Shown: positions 12,827-25,756 of the stretch, one piece after another
Layout: each line of letters begins with the position of its first letter
Position numbering within the stretch: position 1 is the stretch's first letter
NCBI GenBank assembly: GCA_028823105.1
Contig: JAPKCC010000021.1
Location: 1 to 38,019 of the forward strand
DNA from: Phycisphaerales bacterium
GTDB lineage: Bacteria; Planctomycetota; Phycisphaerae; Phycisphaerales; SM1A02
Length of the DNA stretch: 38,019 nucleotides
Reading direction: 5' to 3'
Program-made: the position numbers and the translations under genes
Notes under the pieces: model-generated
What the model was told of the DNA's origin: nothing
Databases searched by the model: none
The model's input: only the letters and a program-made list of their open reading frames with translations

Positions 12827-13795
12827 TCAAAACGGCATTGACCAGGCGACCAGCCTCGCGGCGGGAACGACGATCAAGAGCAGGAGCCCCCACGCTGCAA
12901 GATGGATGAGCGCGATCCGATCGCGGAGTTTCAGGATCAGCATGCTTCCGCCCACCACGACCCCCACACCGACGAGCAGGTGAGTCATCGTCTGAATCAG
13001 ACCAGAATCGATCGGGATCAACCTCGCCAACGCCGCCACCGCGACAACCGCGGCGACTCGTGAAAGCACGCCGATCACCGATCCAAAAGGCCGGTTCTCA
13101 AGCCAGGCGGCGAGTCGAAGCGCGATCATGCCACAGCCGATCACCACCGCCGACGCAACGAGAAATTGGATGACCGCCAGCAGCCGCACCTTGATCAACG
13201 GCGCGTCCAGCGTGAATTTGCCGTCGCTGTTGCGGAAATGACCATCTTCACTCGGGAAGAGCGACGACCAACCGGCGATCAACGCGAACATCATCACCAG
13301 CGCCGCTGCCGCGGTGATGATCGACCAGAGCCGGTGGTTCGATCGAGGCATGATCGCCCCTTCGACCTCTTCGGACGCTCCTTCCTCGGAATCGACGATG
13401 GCGAACCGCCCACCGCCGTGCTTCGACTTCTCCTTCGTCTTCGTCTTGCCAAGGCGCGTATTCGAGACGAGGTCGTATCCACACGCCAGACAGACGACCT
13501 GATCCGAGCCTGGCATGGGTTCCCCGCACACCGGACAGGCCAGCGGGGTCGGCACCGGATCATCTGCGGCCACGATCCCGATTTCTTCGGTCTCATCTCT
13601 CTCATCGGTCTCATCAATCTCATGGGTCGAGCCGGTCGAGTCGTCCGACGTCTCTGACCGATCGTTCGGGATTTCCGCCGACTTCGGTGTCTCGGGCGCA
13701 TTCTCCGAAGGCACGGGATCCAATTCGTAGGATCCCTCCTCGGAATTTGGCTGCTTCGTCGGCTCGGCGTGTTCGTCGGGATTCTGTGGGGTCAT
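12827..13795 (-). CDS. Zinc-ribbon membrane protein, unknown function
   Basis: A 322-residue protein. The first 80 residues are acidic and low-complexity (Pro/Glu/Asp/Ser/Thr, including an encoded 9-bp repeat giving DET/DER units at about 60-70). A zinc ribbon follows: CPVC at 87-90 and CLAC at 102-105, ending GYDLVSNTRLGK, a pattern common in planctomycete membrane proteins. Four or five transmembrane helices occupy roughly 155-180, 205-230, 240-260, 265-290 and 295-315. I choose the ATG at 13795 because an AGGA sits 8 bases upstream; ATGs at 13804 and 13831 are in frame and cannot be excluded. The gene is tail-to-tail with the NeuD-like gene. Its function is not known. Confidence 0.75.
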   Translation of the reverse strand: MTPQNPDEHAEPTKQPNSEEGSYELDPVPSENAPETPKSAEIPNDRSETSDDSTGSTHEIDETDERDETEEIGIVAADDPVPTPLACPVCGEPMPGSDQVVCLACGYDLVSNTRLGKTKTKEKSKHGGGRFAIVDSEEGASEEVEGAIMPRSNHRLWSIITAAAALVMMFALIAGWSSLFPSEDGHFRNSDGKFTLDAPLIKVRLLAVIQFLVASAVVIGCGMIALRLAAWLENRPFGSVIGVLSRVAAVVAVAALARLIPIDSGLIQTMTHLLVGVGVVVGGSMLILKLRDRIALIHLAAWGLLLLIVVPAARLVAWSMPF

Positions 13796-13909
13796 GTACG
13801 ACATCCTGACAGGAACCCCTGCATTCGTCATCTCCGACGCCCGGTATCCGACCGAATCCCGCCCCCCCCCGTGCAATGCGAGATGGCTGTTTTGTTATCT
13901 TCCCCCCAA

Positions 13910-14752
13910 ATGAAAAATGAGAATTCTCTGTTCCAGATGCCATTCTGCACGGCCTTGGCGTTTCTGATCACTGGCCACGCCGCCGCCGCAGTTCCGTCGA
14001 TCTCGTCACTGATCTTCGATGCTCCGAACGTCGTGGGCATCTTCGCCGACGACGACCAGGCCACTCCTCTGGAGGCCGAAGCGACGACGGTGCCGAAGTC
14101 TCCGTGGTCCAGCACGATCGGCGCGGGTCTGAGTTACAGCCAGACTGACAACGTCAACGTCGGCGCCAACTTCAACGGCAGCTTCGCGCGAAATGATGAG
14201 AACTCGAAATGGGAAACCAGCCTCAAGTACATCTACAACTTCGATGACAACGAGGTTAAGGACAACTTCGGCGTGATTCAGACTAGTTTCGAGCGGCTTC
14301 TCGACGATCACCCGAAGTGGCTCTGGTTCACTCAGGCGAGTTTTCAGTACAACGAAACCGAAGCGTACAAGACGAGAACCAAGGCTTTCGGAGGCCTGGG
14401 TTTTCTGGTGTCTCGATCCGACGATCTAAAACTGCTCATCAAGGGTGGTCTCGGTGCCTCCAAGGACCGGAACGGCGACAGCGGCATCATCCCGAGATCA
14501 CTCGTCGGCTACTCCGTCGACTGGGCGATCAACGATCTCGTGAGGCTGACCTCGGAGGGCTCGATCGAGAACGACATCGGCGCGTATTCTGAGTATCTGA
14601 CGGTCCTCGAATTGAAGTTGACGGTCAAGGTGAGCAAGATAAATAACCTCGGCCTCTACCTCACCCTTCGTGACGAGTACGACAGCAACCCGGCCCTCGG
14701 CGACAGTTGGAACCAGGTCTGGTTGACCATGGGCCTCAGTTATTCGTTTTAA
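13910..14752 (+). CDS. DUF481 family outer-membrane protein, first of a tandem pair
   Basis: A 280-residue protein. The signal peptide lies within residues 1-28 (PFCTALAFLITGHAAAA). The mature region matches the DUF481/YdiY salt-induced outer-membrane family: alternating strands with aromatic residues, the WETSLKYIYNFDD and FTQASFQYNETEAY segments, and a terminal aromatic strand (VWLTMGLSYSF) as in beta-barrel proteins. The start at 13910 is provisional: no ribosome site is visible, and an ATG at 13937 would also leave a signal peptide. The next gene is a clear paralogue that shares the KYIYN, SYQYNETE-like, LRDEYDS and final phenylalanine segments. The gene faces away from the zinc-ribbon gene. 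No ligand or transported compound can be inferred. Confidence 0.82.
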   Translation: MKNENSLFQMPFCTALAFLITGHAAAAVPSISSLIFDAPNVVGIFADDDQATPLEAEATTVPKSPWSSTIGAGLSYSQTDNVNVGANFNGSFARNDENSKWETSLKYIYNFDDNEVKDNFGVIQTSFERLLDDHPKWLWFTQASFQYNETEAYKTRTKAFGGLGFLVSRSDDLKLLIKGGLGASKDRNGDSGIIPRSLVGYSVDWAINDLVRLTSEGSIENDIGAYSEYLTVLELKLTVKVSKINNLGLYLTLRDEYDSNPALGDSWNQVWLTMGLSYSF

Positions 14753-14861: not shown

Positions 14862-15683
14862 ATGGATCCTGTCACACTGCTGACCGCCGCCGCGATTCTC
14901 GCGGTCCCCGCCCCCATTGCCCCAACCGACCTTCTTCCCCCGAGCACCGTCGTCCCGACCACGACCGCGCTGATGCTCGGCCTCGCGCAGGATGCCAACG
15001 CCGCGGATCCTGCCGTCGAGGAGAAAAGTCCTTGGACCGGAACCGTCGGCATGGGCCTGACCGCAAGCCGAACCAACACGAACACCCTCGGCTTCAACTT
15101 CAACGCCAGTGCGTCGCGGGCTGATGACATGTCCAACTGGGATTCGAGCCTCAAGTACATCTACAACAAGGATGACGGCTCGATCAAGGACAACTTCTTC
15201 ATCGTGCAGACTGAATACGACCGGCTCTTCGAAAAGGGAAGCGACTGGAACTGGTTCGCCCAGGGCAGTTACCAGTACAACGAAACCGAGACCTATCGGC
15301 AGAGGCTGAAGGCCTTCGCCGGCCCCGGTTACTTCATCTCCCGCACGGAAGACCTCACGTGGAATCTGAAGGCTGGTGCCGGTGCCACTTGGGACGATCA
15401 AGGTTCGGAGAACGGCTGGACAGCTCGATCAGTCGTCGGCACAAATTGGAAGTGGCAGATTCGAAAGGGAATCAACTTCCAGGGATCCGCCGAGATCCAG
15501 AACAGTGTCCAAGACTTCGACAGCTATCTCGCAGTTCTGGAACTCCGAGTGAACGTGGCATTGGAGATGATGGAGAACCTGAACCTCTACTTCTCACTTC
15601 GGGACGAGTACGACAGCACTCCCGGATCCGGTGGGACGTGGAACTCGATGTGGATCACCATGGGCTTCTCGTACGGCTTCTGA
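14862..15683 (+). CDS. DUF481 family outer-membrane protein, second of a tandem pair
   Basis: A 273-residue paralogue of the gene upstream, separated by 109 bases. The N-terminal hydrophobic region (about 1-22) is followed by a linker with a possible cleavage site near AQDANAADP. It shares with its neighbour SPW.GT.G.GL..S, WDSSLKYIYNKDDG, FAQGSYQYNETETY, LELRVNV, YFSLRDEYDS and the aromatic end WITMGFSYGF. An outer-membrane beta-barrel is the expected fold. The start at 14862 has only a weak CGGATG upstream, so expression may be coupled to the first gene. A perfect hairpin terminator 26 bases after the stop ends the pair. Confidence 0.83.
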   Translation: MDPVTLLTAAAILAVPAPIAPTDLLPPSTVVPTTTALMLGLAQDANAADPAVEEKSPWTGTVGMGLTASRTNTNTLGFNFNASASRADDMSNWDSSLKYIYNKDDGSIKDNFFIVQTEYDRLFEKGSDWNWFAQGSYQYNETETYRQRLKAFAGPGYFISRTEDLTWNLKAGAGATWDDQGSENGWTARSVVGTNWKWQIRKGINFQGSAEIQNSVQDFDSYLAVLELRVNVALEMMENLNLYFSLRDEYDSTPGSGGTWNSMWITMGFSYGF

Positions 15684-21299: not shown

Positions 21300-21340
21300 G
21301 CTTCGCGACTGCGACCGACACCTTCGCGCGAGAACACAAG

Positions 21341-21381
21341 ACGCCGCGATTCGCCTTAGAGGCGAATCGCGGCGTTCTTTC
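21341..21381 (+). terminator. Rho-independent terminator after der
   Basis: Perfect 15-bp stem (21341-21355 with 21361-21375), loop TTAGA, followed by TCTTTC. It also insulates der from the lanthipeptide precursor gene that converges on it. Confidence 0.85.
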
Positions 21382-21454
21382 ATAGAAGCAACCGGCGATG
21401 ACGGTCCGGAGTTCCCTCGGAGCAAGCGCTCTCAGGAAGACCCTATTTCGGCTA

Positions 21455-21778
21455 CTACGGCGCGCAATTGGGGCAGGTCGAGGCGACAGCGAAGGACGTA
21501 TTGCACTTTGGGTCAAAGCTTCCCTGTGCCAGTGCGCCACCTGCCGCGGACGAAAGCTCTGCGTCCGAAAGCTCCCTGGTATTCGTCGGGGCGGTAGGCA
21601 GTGTGATATGCACGCAGTTATCGGCGTTCTCAACCACCTTGACGTCCACGCCTTCAGGGACGGGCATGCCGCGTTCCTTGAGCACGGACGCGGGGTCGGC
21701 CATGAACCGGGCCTTCAATGCGTCGTCTTTCCAGCAGGCGGCGAACAGTTCGGCGAGTTTGTTTTGTTGTTCAGTCAT
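21455..21778 (-). CDS. Lanthipeptide precursor with nitrile-hydratase-like leader (NHLP family)
   Basis: A 107-residue RiPP precursor. Residues 1-81 match the NHLP leader class derived from nitrile hydratase alpha: LFAACWKDDALKARFMADPA, then VLKERGMPVPEGVDVKVVEN, then NCVHITLP, then LSDAELSSAAGG. Cleavage is expected after Gly80-Gly81 by a C39-type double-glycine protease. The 26-residue core (82-107) contains Ser87, Thr94, Ser95, Ser100 and Thr101 as dehydration candidates, and Cys92, Cys102 and Cys105 as thioether donors; it ends TCPNCAP. The divergent LanM starting at 22062 is the obvious modifying enzyme, and the pairing of NHLP-type leaders with LanM is known from other bacteria. The ribosome site is weak. 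The product would be a new class II lanthipeptide with up to three rings. Confidence 0.88.
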   Translation of the reverse strand: MTEQQNKLAELFAACWKDDALKARFMADPASVLKERGMPVPEGVDVKVVENADNCVHITLPTAPTNTRELSDAELSSAAGGALAQGSFDPKCNTSFAVASTCPNCAP

Positions 21779-22061
21779 ATGAGATTCAGATTCCAGATCG
21801 AGTAGGAAAGGAAGAGGACGGCGGGGTCAAACATGGACTGGCCTCTTCGGACCGCACGTCCACACTACGGGCACGCCTAAAAGGAGGTTCGTCCTCGCCA
21901 CTATAACGCTCTTTAAAAAACGCAAAACACGCAAAACACGCAAAATAGAAAAGGCCCTCGTGCTCCACGCACGCAGCGGATTATCATGTCGGTCTTGATT
22001 GACGCGATTCCAAAGCGTCGTGCCCACCCCAGCCCTCGGAAGCCCTCGGAGAAGAAGAACC
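21779..22061. promoter_or_regulatory. Divergent control region of the lanthipeptide locus
   Basis: This 283-base spacer must hold the promoters of both the precursor and lanM genes. It contains three direct 9-bp repeats (ACGCAAAAC type, 21920-21946) in a locally A-rich stretch. A small GAGG/CCTC hairpin lies near 21883-21894. I cannot assign -35/-10 pairs with confidence. No regulator gene is adjacent. Confidence 0.45.
21920..21946. repeat. Three 9-bp direct repeats upstream of lanM
   Basis: Three consecutive copies of ACGCAAAAC (the last ends in T) in the divergent promoter region. They could be a binding site with about one-turn phasing, or a simple slippage repeat. Confidence 0.75.
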
Positions 22062-25000
22062 ATGTCGAGCATTCACAATCCACCGGCCGATGTTTTGGTC
22101 AACCAAGGTGACCTCGCTGAAATAGTGATCCCCGGCGCGATGGATCTGCCCGAACGGATCAAGTTGTTCCGTTCGCGCCCGGATCTCTTCTCGGAAAACC
22201 CTCAGGAAGCGGCGAGGCGTGAGACGACGTGGATTCAAGCCCTCGCGGCCGACACACGCGGCCTTGAGATGCGACTGCAGGAACTCGGGATCACGCCTTC
22301 CGAACTTCCCTTGATTCTCGGCGATGTCCGACGAGGCGATCTGGAAGCGCCATCGTGGTGGTCGATCTGCGAAGAAGTGCTTGCCCAACCGCGCCACGAG
22401 GATGACGAATCACTCCCCACGAGGACGTACCTCACACCCGTCGGCGTTGAATCCGACGATGACATGCCGATCCCGTTCGAACATATCTTCTGCGGCTGGA
22501 TCGACGTCGCCACCGACCGACTTCGCGCCCAGGTCCCGGATCTAGACACGATCATCGGGTCGACCGTCCTGCGGAAGGAACAAAGAGGCCTCCTCGAGAA
22601 CCTCACCCTGATCGCACGCAACATCCTGCTGGAGCGATTCGCGCTGGCAAAGGCATCCGCCTACGACTCGAACGATCTGCTGGCCGGACTCCTGTCGTCG
22701 ACCCCGCCTCGGGATCTTTATTGCAAGATCGTCCGGGAGTCGATCGCCGATGGGACCGCCGGATTGATGGAAACCTATCCCGCATTCGCTCGACTGATCG
22801 CGACGCGGGTCGAATGCTGGGTGAGAACCCTCGCGGAGTTCGCGGAGCGACTCGACGCCGACGGCGAGGAACTCGAGCGGGTCTTCTCTCCCAAATCGAA
22901 ACTCGGCGCCCTCGTCGGCGGCGGGCGTGGAATCTCCGACAGCCATAACGGCGGCCGCGCGGTGGTCGTGTGCAAGTTCGAGAACGGAACTCGCATCGTC
23001 TACAAGCCCAGGTCGATGTCGATCGATGTCGCATGGGTCGGGTTGGTCGCGTTCTTCAATTCCAAAGTCGAAGAAGACGCGAGACTGCTCCCGCTTCAAG
23101 TGATCGATCACGGGCTCTATGGATGGATGGAATTCGCCGACCGAAAAGCCTGTCGGGATACGACTGAACTTCAAACCTTCTATCGACGCATGGGGAGCCT
23201 TCTGGGTCTGGTCCACATGCTCCAAGGGAATGACTTCCATCTCGAGAACGTGGTGGCAGCCGGTCCAAATCCGATCGCCATCGACCTTGAGACCATCTCG
23301 GTCGGTGACCCGATGGTCGATCTTCAGGGACAGGAACCTGATCCTGCGACCGTCAAAGTGGAGAAGTCGGTGCTTCGAGCCCTCCTCCTCCCCTCTGTCA
23401 TGGCCATGAGGGGGCGGGATGGAGTTCGAAATCTCGGCGCGGTCGGCGTCGAAGTCGCTGCCGAGAAAGGTGTGGGAAAAACGCACCGAAGAATGAGCCA
23501 GATCAACACCGATTTCCAACGTTGGATCAAGGTGGATGGCCAGGATCCGGAGATGAAGATTTCCGAACAATCGAGACCCATCCTCGAGAATGGAGATGCA
23601 GTCGATTCGGAGCACTATCGGAGTGACGTCGCCGAAGGCTATCGCATCGCCTACCAGTCGATCCTCGAACATCAGGATGAATGGCTCGCACCGGACGGCC
23701 CGCTTGCACTCCTCGACGATGCCTGGGGACGAGTGCTCAATCGTGCCACCAATGTCTATTACCGATTGTTTCTGGAGACCTGCGGTTCCTCGCTGTTGAA
23801 GTCCGGCGTCGACCGCTGGATCCACGGGCAGAGATTCCGCGTCGGATCGACAGAAACATCGGACCGCGATCCGAAGATCCTCGAGATCTATGACGCCGTC
23901 GTGGAAGTCGAAGAGAACGCCTTGACTCGTGGAGACGTGGCCTACTTCATCGCCAGAGGATCCGGTCTCGAGTACCACGCGCCCGACTATCGCACGGGCG
24001 AGTCGACGAAGATCCCGAAAGCCCTCCTGAAGAATTCCGCGGCGGAGGCTGCTCGAATGCAGATCTCGAGGATGGGCAAGGACGATCTGGATCTCCAATT
24101 CCGCCTCATCACCTCGAGCTATCTCACGGCCCAGCTGGCGACCGAAGGTTTGCATCTCGGCGACGCTCCGAAAGTTGACGCGGGCTCGGAGCCCCCCGAA
24201 GCCACCAGAGATGCCACGGATGATGAAGTCCGAACCTGGGTGCGGGACAACCTCGCGACCCTTGAATCGCTCGCGATTCGCGACGGTGACAAGGCCAACT
24301 GGATCGACGCGGAGATGGACGTCATGTCCGAGACCGCACGTCCGGCCGCACTTGCAGCGGGCTTGTATACGGGGAGAGGTGGCCTCGCCCTGCTCTTCGA
24401 GAGGGCCTATCGATGTTTCGGTGACGCCGATCTGCTGCGAAACGCCAAGGCCGCCGTCCAACGCGAACTCTCCCTCTTGGAACATGGCGACTCCTCGGCG
24501 ATCGGAACGCTCTTCGCCCTCGAGGGCCCTTCAGGCATGGGGCAGCGGGCCGGCGTGCTCGCCGCGTTCTGGGCGATCGGGCGGCACGAAGGAGGCGGCC
24601 GCCATCGCGACATGGTTCACGCCCTCCTCGATGGAATCACCGATCGAACGATCAAGTTGGACGACTCGTTCGATGTGATCAGCGGTGCTGCTGGGCTCAT
24701 GCTCCTGATGATGGGCATGAAGCGGGAGGATCCGTCCTTCGATCACCAGGAACTTCTGATCCGGCTTGGCGAACATCTCAACCGACACACCGTGCAGATC
24801 GACGGGACAGGATGGCAGATGGGCGGAAAGATGAAGCGGCCGTTGAACGGCTTCGGCCACGGGCGAGCGGGTAGCGGACTGGCCCTCCTCGAGGTCGGAA
24901 CACACCTCAACCGACCGGACTTTCGCGATCTCGGTCTGGCGGCGCTTCGAGCCGAACACGAGATGCGACGCAACGACAATGGCTCGGAAGGATGGCCGGA

Positions 25001-25439
25001 TCTCCGAAGCATAGCGATTGGAAGTCCTCTTCCAACGGGACCATACTTCAACGCGTGGTGCGCCGGAGGCGAAGGAATCGCCCTTTCCCGCGCCGCAGCG
25101 CTGGAGTACACGGATGAGTCCTTCATCCGTGAAGATCTCGATGTCGCGATCGACCAGATCAGTCGCCTAGAGAAAACCGCCCCGAGCCACGGAAGGAGAA
25201 GGCACCTCTGCTGTGGCACCAGCGGTCGAGCCGAGATGTTCTTCTCATTGGCCAAGATCCTCGATCGTGATGACCTCGCGGCGACCGGCCGGTCCGTCTC
25301 CCGCCGAAAACTGCCGCCGGCCTACACCGCGCCGGAAACGACGGGCCTGTCACTCCTTCAGGGTCTGCCTGGAGAGATCTGGACTCACCTCTCGTCTCTT
25401 CAAAAGGACGATTCGCACTTGCTCCTACTTCGCATGTGA
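22062..25439 (+). CDS. lanM: Class II lanthipeptide synthetase LanM (CCG-type cyclase)
   Basis: An 1125-residue bifunctional enzyme that phosphorylates and eliminates Ser/Thr in a precursor core, then closes thioether rings with Cys. The N-terminal dehydratase half (DUF4135, about 170-600) has the kinase-like YKPRS lysine (about 315), the NDFHLENVV catalytic loop (Asp391, His393, Asn396) and IDLETI (Asp408, Glu410). The C-terminal LanC-like half (about 765-1110) has LYTGRGGLALL, GFGHGRAGSG with His933, WCAGGEGI with zinc ligand Cys1000, and HLCCGTSGRAE with Cys1050-Cys1051. Most LanMs have Cys-His-Gly at the last site; Cys-Cys-Gly is the ProcM-type variant. The start is set by GGAG about 11 bases before the ATG at 22062; 21 upstream codons are unsupported. 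The precursor gene diverges from it. No transporter is next to it. Confidence 0.94.
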   Translation: MSSIHNPPADVLVNQGDLAEIVIPGAMDLPERIKLFRSRPDLFSENPQEAARRETTWIQALAADTRGLEMRLQELGITPSELPLILGDVRRGDLEAPSWWSICEEVLAQPRHEDDESLPTRTYLTPVGVESDDDMPIPFEHIFCGWIDVATDRLRAQVPDLDTIIGSTVLRKEQRGLLENLTLIARNILLERFALAKASAYDSNDLLAGLLSSTPPRDLYCKIVRESIADGTAGLMETYPAFARLIATRVECWVRTLAEFAERLDADGEELERVFSPKSKLGALVGGGRGISDSHNGGRAVVVCKFENGTRIVYKPRSMSIDVAWVGLVAFFNSKVEEDARLLPLQVIDHGLYGWMEFADRKACRDTTELQTFYRRMGSLLGLVHMLQGNDFHLENVVAAGPNPIAIDLETISVGDPMVDLQGQEPDPATVKVEKSVLRALLLPSVMAMRGRDGVRNLGAVGVEVAAEKGVGKTHRRMSQINTDFQRWIKVDGQDPEMKISEQSRPILENGDAVDSEHYRSDVAEGYRIAYQSILEHQDEWLAPDGPLALLDDAWGRVLNRATNVYYRLFLETCGSSLLKSGVDRWIHGQRFRVGSTETSDRDPKILEIYDAVVEVEENALTRGDVAYFIARGSGLEYHAPDYRTGESTKIPKALLKNSAAEAARMQISRMGKDDLDLQFRLITSSYLTAQLATEGLHLGDAPKVDAGSEPPEATRDATDDEVRTWVRDNLATLESLAIRDGDKANWIDAEMDVMSETARPAALAAGLYTGRGGLALLFERAYRCFGDADLLRNAKAAVQRELSLLEHGDSSAIGTLFALEGPSGMGQRAGVLAAFWAIGRHEGGGRHRDMVHALLDGITDRTIKLDDSFDVISGAAGLMLLMMGMKREDPSFDHQELLIRLGEHLNRHTVQIDGTGWQMGGKMKRPLNGFGHGRAGSGLALLEVGTHLNRPDFRDLGLAALRAEHEMRRNDNGSEGWPDLRSIAIGSPLPTGPYFNAWCAGGEGIALSRAAALEYTDESFIREDLDVAIDQISRLEKTAPSHGRRRHLCCGTSGRAEMFFSLAKILDRDDLAATGRSVSRRKLPPAYTAPETTGLSLLQGLPGEIWTHLSSLQKDDSHLLLLRM

Positions 25440-25756
25440 CCGCCCCAGAAGCAGCGGCGCGAACTGGCGCCGACCAGGCAGGCGAGATGATCGCTGCGAT
25501 TGGTCGAGATGCTGCGAGAATCGATCGGAATCGTTGCGGCCCTCGGGTATGATTTGGATTCAGATGCGTGTTACACCCGGATCACCTGTCGAGCGGTGTT
25601 CCGGGGCCTAAAAAACCCGCTCGACGACATCCTCAGCCGTCCATGATCCTCATGGATCCTCATTGATCCTCATCGGCCTTGGCTCTCCTGCCAGTGCGTG
25701 TGGTGAATCGATCCCTAGTATGGCTGTGTGATGCCTTCATCAGGAACGCATCCACC
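25440..25756. other. Spacer between lanM and the PSP1 gene
   Basis: 317 bases with no convincing gene. It holds a four-unit 10-bp repeat at 25641-25680 and a TAGTAT hexamer at 25717-25722 that may serve the PSP1 gene. A 45-codon frame at 25509-25646 is visible but lacks a ribosome site and a leader-like sequence. No clear terminator for lanM is seen. Confidence 0.5.
25641..25680. repeat. 10-bp tandem repeat, four units
   Basis: Four 10-mers of the CATGGATCCT type, with changes in the first and last units. It ends 76 bases before the PSP1-domain start codon. Confidence 0.72.

Follow-up and report, generated by a model that had tools for sequence, protein, structure and literature searches.

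The standard example of a single enzyme that makes many unrelated cyclic peptides comes from the prochlorosins (ProcA precursors matured by ProcM in marine Prochlorococcus and Synechococcus). A solitary LanM enzyme of the CCG type serves dozens of precursors there, which share a conserved Nif11 leader, carry a hypervariable core after a Gly-Gly site and are in many cases encoded away from LanM; the ratio of nonsynonymous to synonymous substitution rates (dN/dS) of LanM is low (family median, 0.21; PMC10027976; papers given by PMC number are cited throughout for excerpts of their text). The CCG motif marks ProcM-like LanMs and is proposed to aid promiscuity (PMC10783134), and among CCG LanMs high promiscuity is described as so far known from the prochlorosins alone (PMC10027976). 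A second system was reported by Haft et al. (2010; PMC2887384) from Azospirillum and Nostoc: precursors with leaders of family TIGR03793 (NHLP) and hypervariable cores occur as several paralogues, of which Azospirillum sp. B510 has eight, and their genes adjoin that of a LanM-like enzyme; NHLP genes are tied in the same source to the exporter families TIGR03794, TIGR03796 and TIGR03797. Roseocin-family and related class II lanthipeptides also pair NHLP-type leaders with LanM, and in the set of PMC10027976 NHLP leaders went with CHG LanMs and Nif11-type leaders with CCG LanMs. Here, we report an analysis of a 38,019-nucleotide stretch of a marine Phycisphaerales genome (the window; GenBank assembly GCA_028823105.1, contig JAPKCC010000021.1, positions 1 to 38,019) that holds a LanM gene and a divergently transcribed NHLP precursor gene, which probably belong to a class II lanthipeptide system with NHLP leaders and a prochlorosin-like way of working, as judged from its genes.

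With the prochlorosins this system shares a solitary CCG-type LanM, several precursors with a conserved leader and a hypervariable core after Gly-Gly, many of them away from LanM, and a low LanM dN/dS (0.16 to 0.28 by NG86 in the window's group of five). It differs in its leader (NHLP, TIGR03793), its host (Planctomycetota), the number of precursors in the genome (five to seven rather than dozens) and its one conserved core linked to LanM; because it has no Nif11-type leader, we do not file it as a prochlorosin. The TIGR03793 leader, the hypervariable cores, the paralogues and the enzyme recall Azospirillum and Nostoc, but here most precursors and the exporter lie on other contigs, and LanM stands with one precursor alone. 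Since PMC2887384 already had NHLP paralogues and LanM-like enzymes, the system is not new in kind. The roseocin family is alike in its pairing of leader and enzyme, but its LanMs are CHG and the one described here is CCG.

Residues 5 to 81 of the precursor (Table 1) match TIGR03793 (leader_NHLP) at 68 bits (E, 4.9e-19; cut-off, 50.9). The protein also matches the nitrile hydratase alpha model PF02979, and has no match to Nif11-derived models at E values up to 0.1. It reads LSDAELSSAAGG before the Gly-Gly cleavage point and ALAQGSFDPKCNTSFAVASTCPNCAP after it, the latter being the core, with three Cys and five Ser/Thr. The calculated monoisotopic mass of the unmodified core is 2599.15 Da, and loss of four or five waters would bring it to 2527.11 or 2509.10 Da. 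Relatives keep the LanM-linked core pattern GS[FW]D..CNTSF...S.C; Ser6, Cys11, Thr13, Ser14, Ser19 and Cys21 are identical among all four complete LanM-linked cores (four species), and a third Cys is present in all four, displaced by one residue in genome G084 (genomes, contigs and retrieved loci carry our own G, C and L numbers). LanM scores 521 bits against TIGR03897 (cut-off, 304), 286 bits against PF13575 and 108 bits against PF05147. Translation of LanM probably does not begin at TTG 21999, its listed start, since the closest orthologues align from the ATG given in Table 1. The divergent pair is not a chance call: both families score above curated cut-offs, their models match nothing in any of 14 control genomes, and the pair recurs among relatives. 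What an earlier note, made from the letters of the window, had claimed here was borne out, namely a 107-residue NHLP-leader precursor with a Gly-Gly site divergent from a full-length LanM with both motif sets intact, in a planctomycete background; the named relatives are Phycisphaerae or Phycisphaerales metagenome-assembled genomes, e.g., Phycisphaera sp. TMED9.

Dehydratase residues (D.H.GG, KPR, GNDFH..N and IDLET) and cyclase residues (C1000 and C1050-C1051-G1052) of LanM are invariant across 14 homologues. We take the former to have the catalytic roles known for LanM dehydratases and the cyclase Cys to be among three zinc ligands. A zinc-ligand role of the cyclase motif residues is given in PMC10783134. 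Sequence comparison with the PDB gives LicM2 and CylM as relatives; the alignment to LicM2 (PDB 6st5) spans the dehydratase residues and C1000 and stops short of C1050-C1051. A degenerate or repurposed LanM, which would dehydrate or phosphorylate without closing rings, has a possible precedent. The maturase behind one di-phosphorylated product is reportedly LanM-like. That a sole maturase gives such a product from its precursor (PMC9259500) speaks for this alternative; we hold it scarcely credible here, as both signatures are invariant over the 14 homologues, LanM dN/dS is low and the linked core retains its three Cys across species. For the cores themselves (23 to 25 codons), dN/dS is too noisy for use.

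All 15 LanM loci of the Phycisphaerae clade have the CCG motif; CHG was found in three Pseudomonas loci and in the actinobacterial and Firmicutes loci with a readable motif. In a LanM tree that has no ProcM (one genome_contigs scan gave 67 loci, with no cyanobacterial LanM among them), the Phycisphaerae form one clade (SH-aLRT, 100) joined to a proteobacterial CCG group (97). Of twelve proteobacterial LanMs with CCG, ten had their surroundings searched, crudely, for Gly-Gly open reading frames (ORFs), with nothing convincing found. One LanM inside the Phycisphaerae clade (L151) lies on a contig labeled Crocinitomicaceae (Bacteroidota), perhaps a binning error.

The window genome (G000; 3.35 Mb, 97% complete, 194 contigs) has four complete NHLP precursors, on contigs C112 (the window), C7, C76 and C160, and three more that run off contig ends, on C160, C131 and C30; because the cut pieces may belong to one another, the total is five to seven. 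The cores of these precursors are wholly different from one another (GCGCGGTTNNCGYPHSILSLD on C7, and GGGHNTQHATICQRGNMVPCDMINIGGNKSPFS, RTLAPYFC and SQCPQMGMSCGL...). Among the 42 precursors of the genus with cores of up to 45 residues (861 pairs), leaders have a median pairwise identity of 0.73 and cores one of 0.13. The leader is invariant at 41 of 81 positions over nine dispersed and LanM-linked precursors, and the four complete cores of the window genome and the C131 fragment all have Cys and Ser/Thr. Conserved between species are the LanM-linked core and the C7 type; a few others recur in two genomes. Core statistics for the family rest on 70 of 132 leader-domain rows, kept for completeness (leader start, ≤2; leader end, ≥80; uncut 3' side; no X). 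NHLP places outside this set include G006:C3, C8 and C22:84103, G038:C84, C108, C258 and C262, G067:C29, G082:C16 and G107:C87, and all those of G007, G042, G047, G069, G075 and G094.

The window genome encodes a C39-peptidase exporter on another contig than LanM (C82), in an operon of HlyD, a C39-peptidase ABC protein, a second ABC protein, TolC and a DUF7005 gene; the HlyD passes TIGR03794 (160 bits; cut-off, 156). The same gene order occurs in G033, G062, G084 and G100, unlinked to LanM within the stretches retrieved, and the DUF7005 (PF22541) gene closes the operon in all five of these window-genus genomes (C82 copy, L022:14885-15958). An exporter lies directly upstream of LanM, on the same strand, in 8 of the 14 LanM genomes of the family (G006, G013, G028, G067, G076, G082, G089 and G129); some of these retrieved stretches begin inside the operon, and that of G076 includes TolC alone of the exporter genes, its HlyD lying at a greater distance. 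Between TolC and LanM, a gap of about 1.1 kb holds a homologue of the C82 DUF7005 protein (35 to 45% identical) in all eight genomes, at nine loci (L128, L129 and L131 to L137, two of them in G129). Because DUF7005 fills the gap in all eight, the C82 operon corresponds to that cluster minus LanM, and the window shows in divided form a system whose genes stand together in other genera.

Beside the C82 exporter stands a JmjC_2 oxygenase-like gene that recurs in all four relatives of the genus and also in G076, G013 and G028. Upstream of the C82 exporter (L022:4081-6451), it is accompanied by a weak sulfotransferase match, and homologues of the two genes adjoin the exporter or LanM of several relatives. 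Both are possible tailoring enzymes, judged by their families and positions.

Full-length LanM was found in 14 and NHLP genes in 24 of the 151 genomes of the family. All 14 LanM genomes have NHLP genes, versus 10 of the 137 others (Fisher's exact test, P of about 1e-13, with relatedness ignored), a count that scores G009 and G016 as LanM-free, their LanM matches being weak and partial (E, 2e-4 and 9e-4). This association, which the earlier note had put forward as a check, thus came out in its favor. That note had also named loci with LanM and no precursor beside it as evidence against the pairing; in the window clade this case does not arise, a divergent precursor, or the truncated end of one, adjoining LanM in six of six cases, and across the family no precursor was found in the stretch retrieved around LanM in 3 of 14 neighborhoods (G006, G013 and G067). 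Of the ten NHLP-bearing genomes without LanM, five exceed the NHLP cut-off: G120 (68% complete), G038 (85%), G107 (54%), G118 and G042.

Recognition, dehydration, thioether closure, Gly-Gly cleavage and export are the known roles of these protein families. In the mechanism that we propose, the single LanM would bind the NHLP leaders, both in the window precursor and in its dispersed paralogues, its DUF4135 domain would dehydrate Ser/Thr of the core, and the zinc-binding CCG cyclase domain would close (methyl)lanthionine rings by adding Cys thiols. Cleavage of the leader after Gly-Gly would then fall to the C39 peptidase domain in the C82 exporter, and the mature peptide would leave through the HlyD/ABC/TolC channel. 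One product, that of the LanM-linked core, would be retained across species while most others turn over fast. LanM is predicted to act on the window core, and ring pattern, cleavage, export and biological role are likewise predictions; from the shared leaders, the CCG motif and LanM being the only such enzyme found, we infer that it may also modify the dispersed precursors.

Several points weigh against this mechanism. The two ABC proteins of C82 fall 4 to 6% below equivalog cut-offs (821 against 853 bits for TIGR03796; 667 against 709 bits for TIGR03797), G118 (93% complete) and G042 (95% complete) each have one NHLP gene over the cut-off and no LanM, and the CCG motif also occurs in the twelve proteobacterial relatives. 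Cys is present in 44 of the 70 complete family precursors, all of which also have Ser/Thr, and absent from 26 (none of the four in the window genome); a Cys-free precursor cannot form lanthionine alone. Lastly, NHLP leaders might be used by a YcaO/TfuA pair that the window genome encodes.

The Cys-free precursors would also suit a LanM dedicated to its adjacent precursor, with the dispersed NHLP genes being decaying copies or substrates of other enzymes, and so would the small number of cores that recur between species and the truncated leader copies described below. Dispersed and linked precursors nevertheless have a common leader, the window genome's cores all carry the residues needed for thioethers, LanM is the sole DUF4135 match in the genome, and TfuA, which occurs in 1 of the 151 family genomes, that of the window, cannot account for an expansion across the family; we consider a dedicated pair unlikely.

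The YcaO/TfuA pair lies on a separate contig from the window precursor (C109:1-9451, L023), followed by an NHLP-type HlyD, a C39-peptidase ABC protein, a second ABC protein and a TolC-like protein. It could in principle mature the NHLP precursors by azoline or thioamide chemistry, leaving LanM a secondary enzyme or one for a single peptide: the YcaO passes TIGR00702 (148 bits; cut-off, 76), the HlyD passes its model (167 bits; cut-off, 156), and NHLP leaders are tied to azole-forming clusters in PMC2887384. Against this, TfuA occurs in that one genome of the family and NHLP genes in 24, and as main maturase the pair was rejected on that count. The best model for the YcaO is moreover of the thioamidation type (TIGR03266, 152 bits; cut-off, 365) rather than of an azole-cluster type, and neither neighboring ABC protein has a PF00005 ATPase domain at E values up to 1e-3. 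Maturation by YcaO/TfuA is thus highly improbable, and a LanM serving many NHLP precursors remains the reading that we prefer.

The precursor-LanM pair recurs in four same-genus relatives, whole in G084 and G100 and cut by contig ends in G033 and G062. The order in G084 and G100 is der, precursor, LanM, PSP1 gene, FAH-like gene, lipoamide dehydrogenase and histidine kinase; in G033 the locus is split over two contigs, each of which terminates in the precursor; the G062 contig stops inside that gene, with der on a separate contig. Between species, der is 92 to 96% and LanM 73 to 80% identical. An empty site was found in G129, G120 and G111, of the same genus, where about 200 to 270 bp separate der from PSP1 (aligned ends) and no LanM or precursor match lies in between; the LanM of G129 sits at another location and is 42 to 44% identical. 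The pair may have been inserted elsewhere or lost there, either being compatible with the empty site. G060, which groups with the window clade in the LanM tree, has precursors divergent from LanM and no exporter within the stretch retrieved around LanM.

Besides precursors, the window genome has five short leader stubs of 19 codons (MTEQKNQLASLFAACWSGD followed by a stop codon, or variants; ending in AACWSGD or AAWLSGD), and a frame-broken copy at C10:11610. A GC-rich hairpin lies 3' of four of them; the fifth runs into a contig end. Two stub sites are common to several species (C158 with G062:C22; C103 with G033:C47, itself matching G084:C4), with flanks 83 to 88% identical. Per 60 bases, the stub DNA differs by 2 in C158/G062, 3 in G033/G084 and 6 in C103/G033; conservation beyond that of the flanks is suggested for C158/G062 and G033/G084 and is not evident for C103/G033. 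The stub comes after a complete or partial precursor at three sites, C76, G033:C47 and G084:C4. The pattern suggests that stubs may be array ends retained while precursors turn over; gene conversion among leaders would look alike. A broader proposal is that the marine Phycisphaerae evolved a combinatorial lanthipeptide library of their own, apart from the cyanobacteria, with a promiscuous CCG LanM, NHLP precursor arrays at fixed chromosomal sites, turnover of the hypervariable genes by recombination among nearly identical leaders, conserved ends made of stub and hairpin, and DUF7005 as part of the machinery; we offer it tentatively, as a possibility open to considerable doubt.

Among the literature matches listed, no such lanthipeptide system is described from Phycisphaerae, and the excerpts of PMC13101482, PMC11123730 and PMC10902248 do not name a Phycisphaerae lanthipeptide. 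For other Planctomycetota, predicted lanthipeptide clusters are in print (PMC10805854, introduction; PMC11588811, one in a table), as are a class V cluster (PMC9692418) and one class II cluster (table of PMC12639061). The lineage novelty claimed in the earlier note therefore stands for the Phycisphaerae within those matches and falls for the phylum, and its description of a two-gene locus was too narrow, given the further precursors, the unlinked exporter operon and the CCG motif described from multi-substrate LanMs. With a host from a different marine phylum, leaders of a different family and a conserved product whose gene adjoins LanM, the system would offer an independent comparison: on enzyme features that accompany substrate tolerance, on the exchange of leader families, and on whether the conserved product does something that the variable ones do not. 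Its assembly could be traced through the empty site, through exporter operons linked to LanM or apart from it, and through the DUF7005 gene that accompanies them. DUF7005, a conserved part of the system, would under the broader proposal above be an undescribed component of the machinery.

Table 1. Positions of the locus features (window coordinates) and of the leader stubs (genome and contig coordinates)
Feature	Position	Strand	Remarks
Stretch between der and PSP1 gene, 4379 bp	21300..25678		Holds the precursor-LanM pair
Hairpin, 16 pairs, terminator-like	21341..21375		Between convergent der and precursor ends
NHLP-leader lanthipeptide precursor, 107 residues	21455..21778	minus	ATG at 21778, stop 21455-21457
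Precursor core, 26 residues	21458-21535	minus	
Precursor leader, 81 residues	21536-21778	minus	AAGG at end
Divergent intergenic region, precursor to LanM, 283 bp	21779..22061		
LanM, class II lanthipeptide synthetase, 1125 residues	22062..25439	plus	Start at ATG 22062
DUF4135 dehydratase domain	22776..23954	plus	DSHNGG, KPR, GNDFHLEN, IDLET
LanC-like cyclase domain	24360..25310	plus	Zinc-ligand motifs WCAG and HLCCG (CCG type)
Leader stub, G000	C158:1430		L026
Leader stub, G000	C160:6375		L020
Leader stub, G000	C76:9180		L021
Leader stub, G000	C103:10000		L035
Leader stub, G000	C188:22705		L036
Leader stub, relative	G033:C47:16514		
Leader stub, relative	G062:C22:80781		
Leader stub, relative	G084:C4:351		

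A consensus scan for sigma-70-like promoters found none in the gap between precursor and LanM, and Rfam at gathering thresholds gave no match within the window. The hairpin in Table 1 was the one site found by a scan in which shuffled sequences average 1.1. A viral or mobile origin of precursor or LanM was rejected: neither has a confirmed relative in viral_contigs, and PHROGs gave none at E values up to 1e-3.

Another NHLP subfamily has tandem leader pairs, partly in one frame, and a conserved Cys-free core type, YYxTIAKTGARSL (G084:C15, L095; G100:C320, L102; G107:C93, L140; G038:C168, L123; G067:C19, L143); by its core, it is probably not a lanthipeptide. In G129, double-leader-like ORFs with no Gly-Gly or core (C123:26733-27164, L129; C133:9790-10221, L128) lie directly downstream of both near-identical LanM copies. 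Two leader fusions were seen in the window genome: at C158:3-338 (L026), on a contig edge, the middle part of a leader runs in frame into a 111-residue ORF, and at C160:5571-6005 (L020) a leader start is fused in frame to a 144-residue protein with hydrophobic stretches. Elsewhere in the window, two adjacent plus-strand ORFs (13769-14752 and 14862-15683) look by eye like paralogues, with SLKYIYN..KDNF and C-terminal stretches in common.

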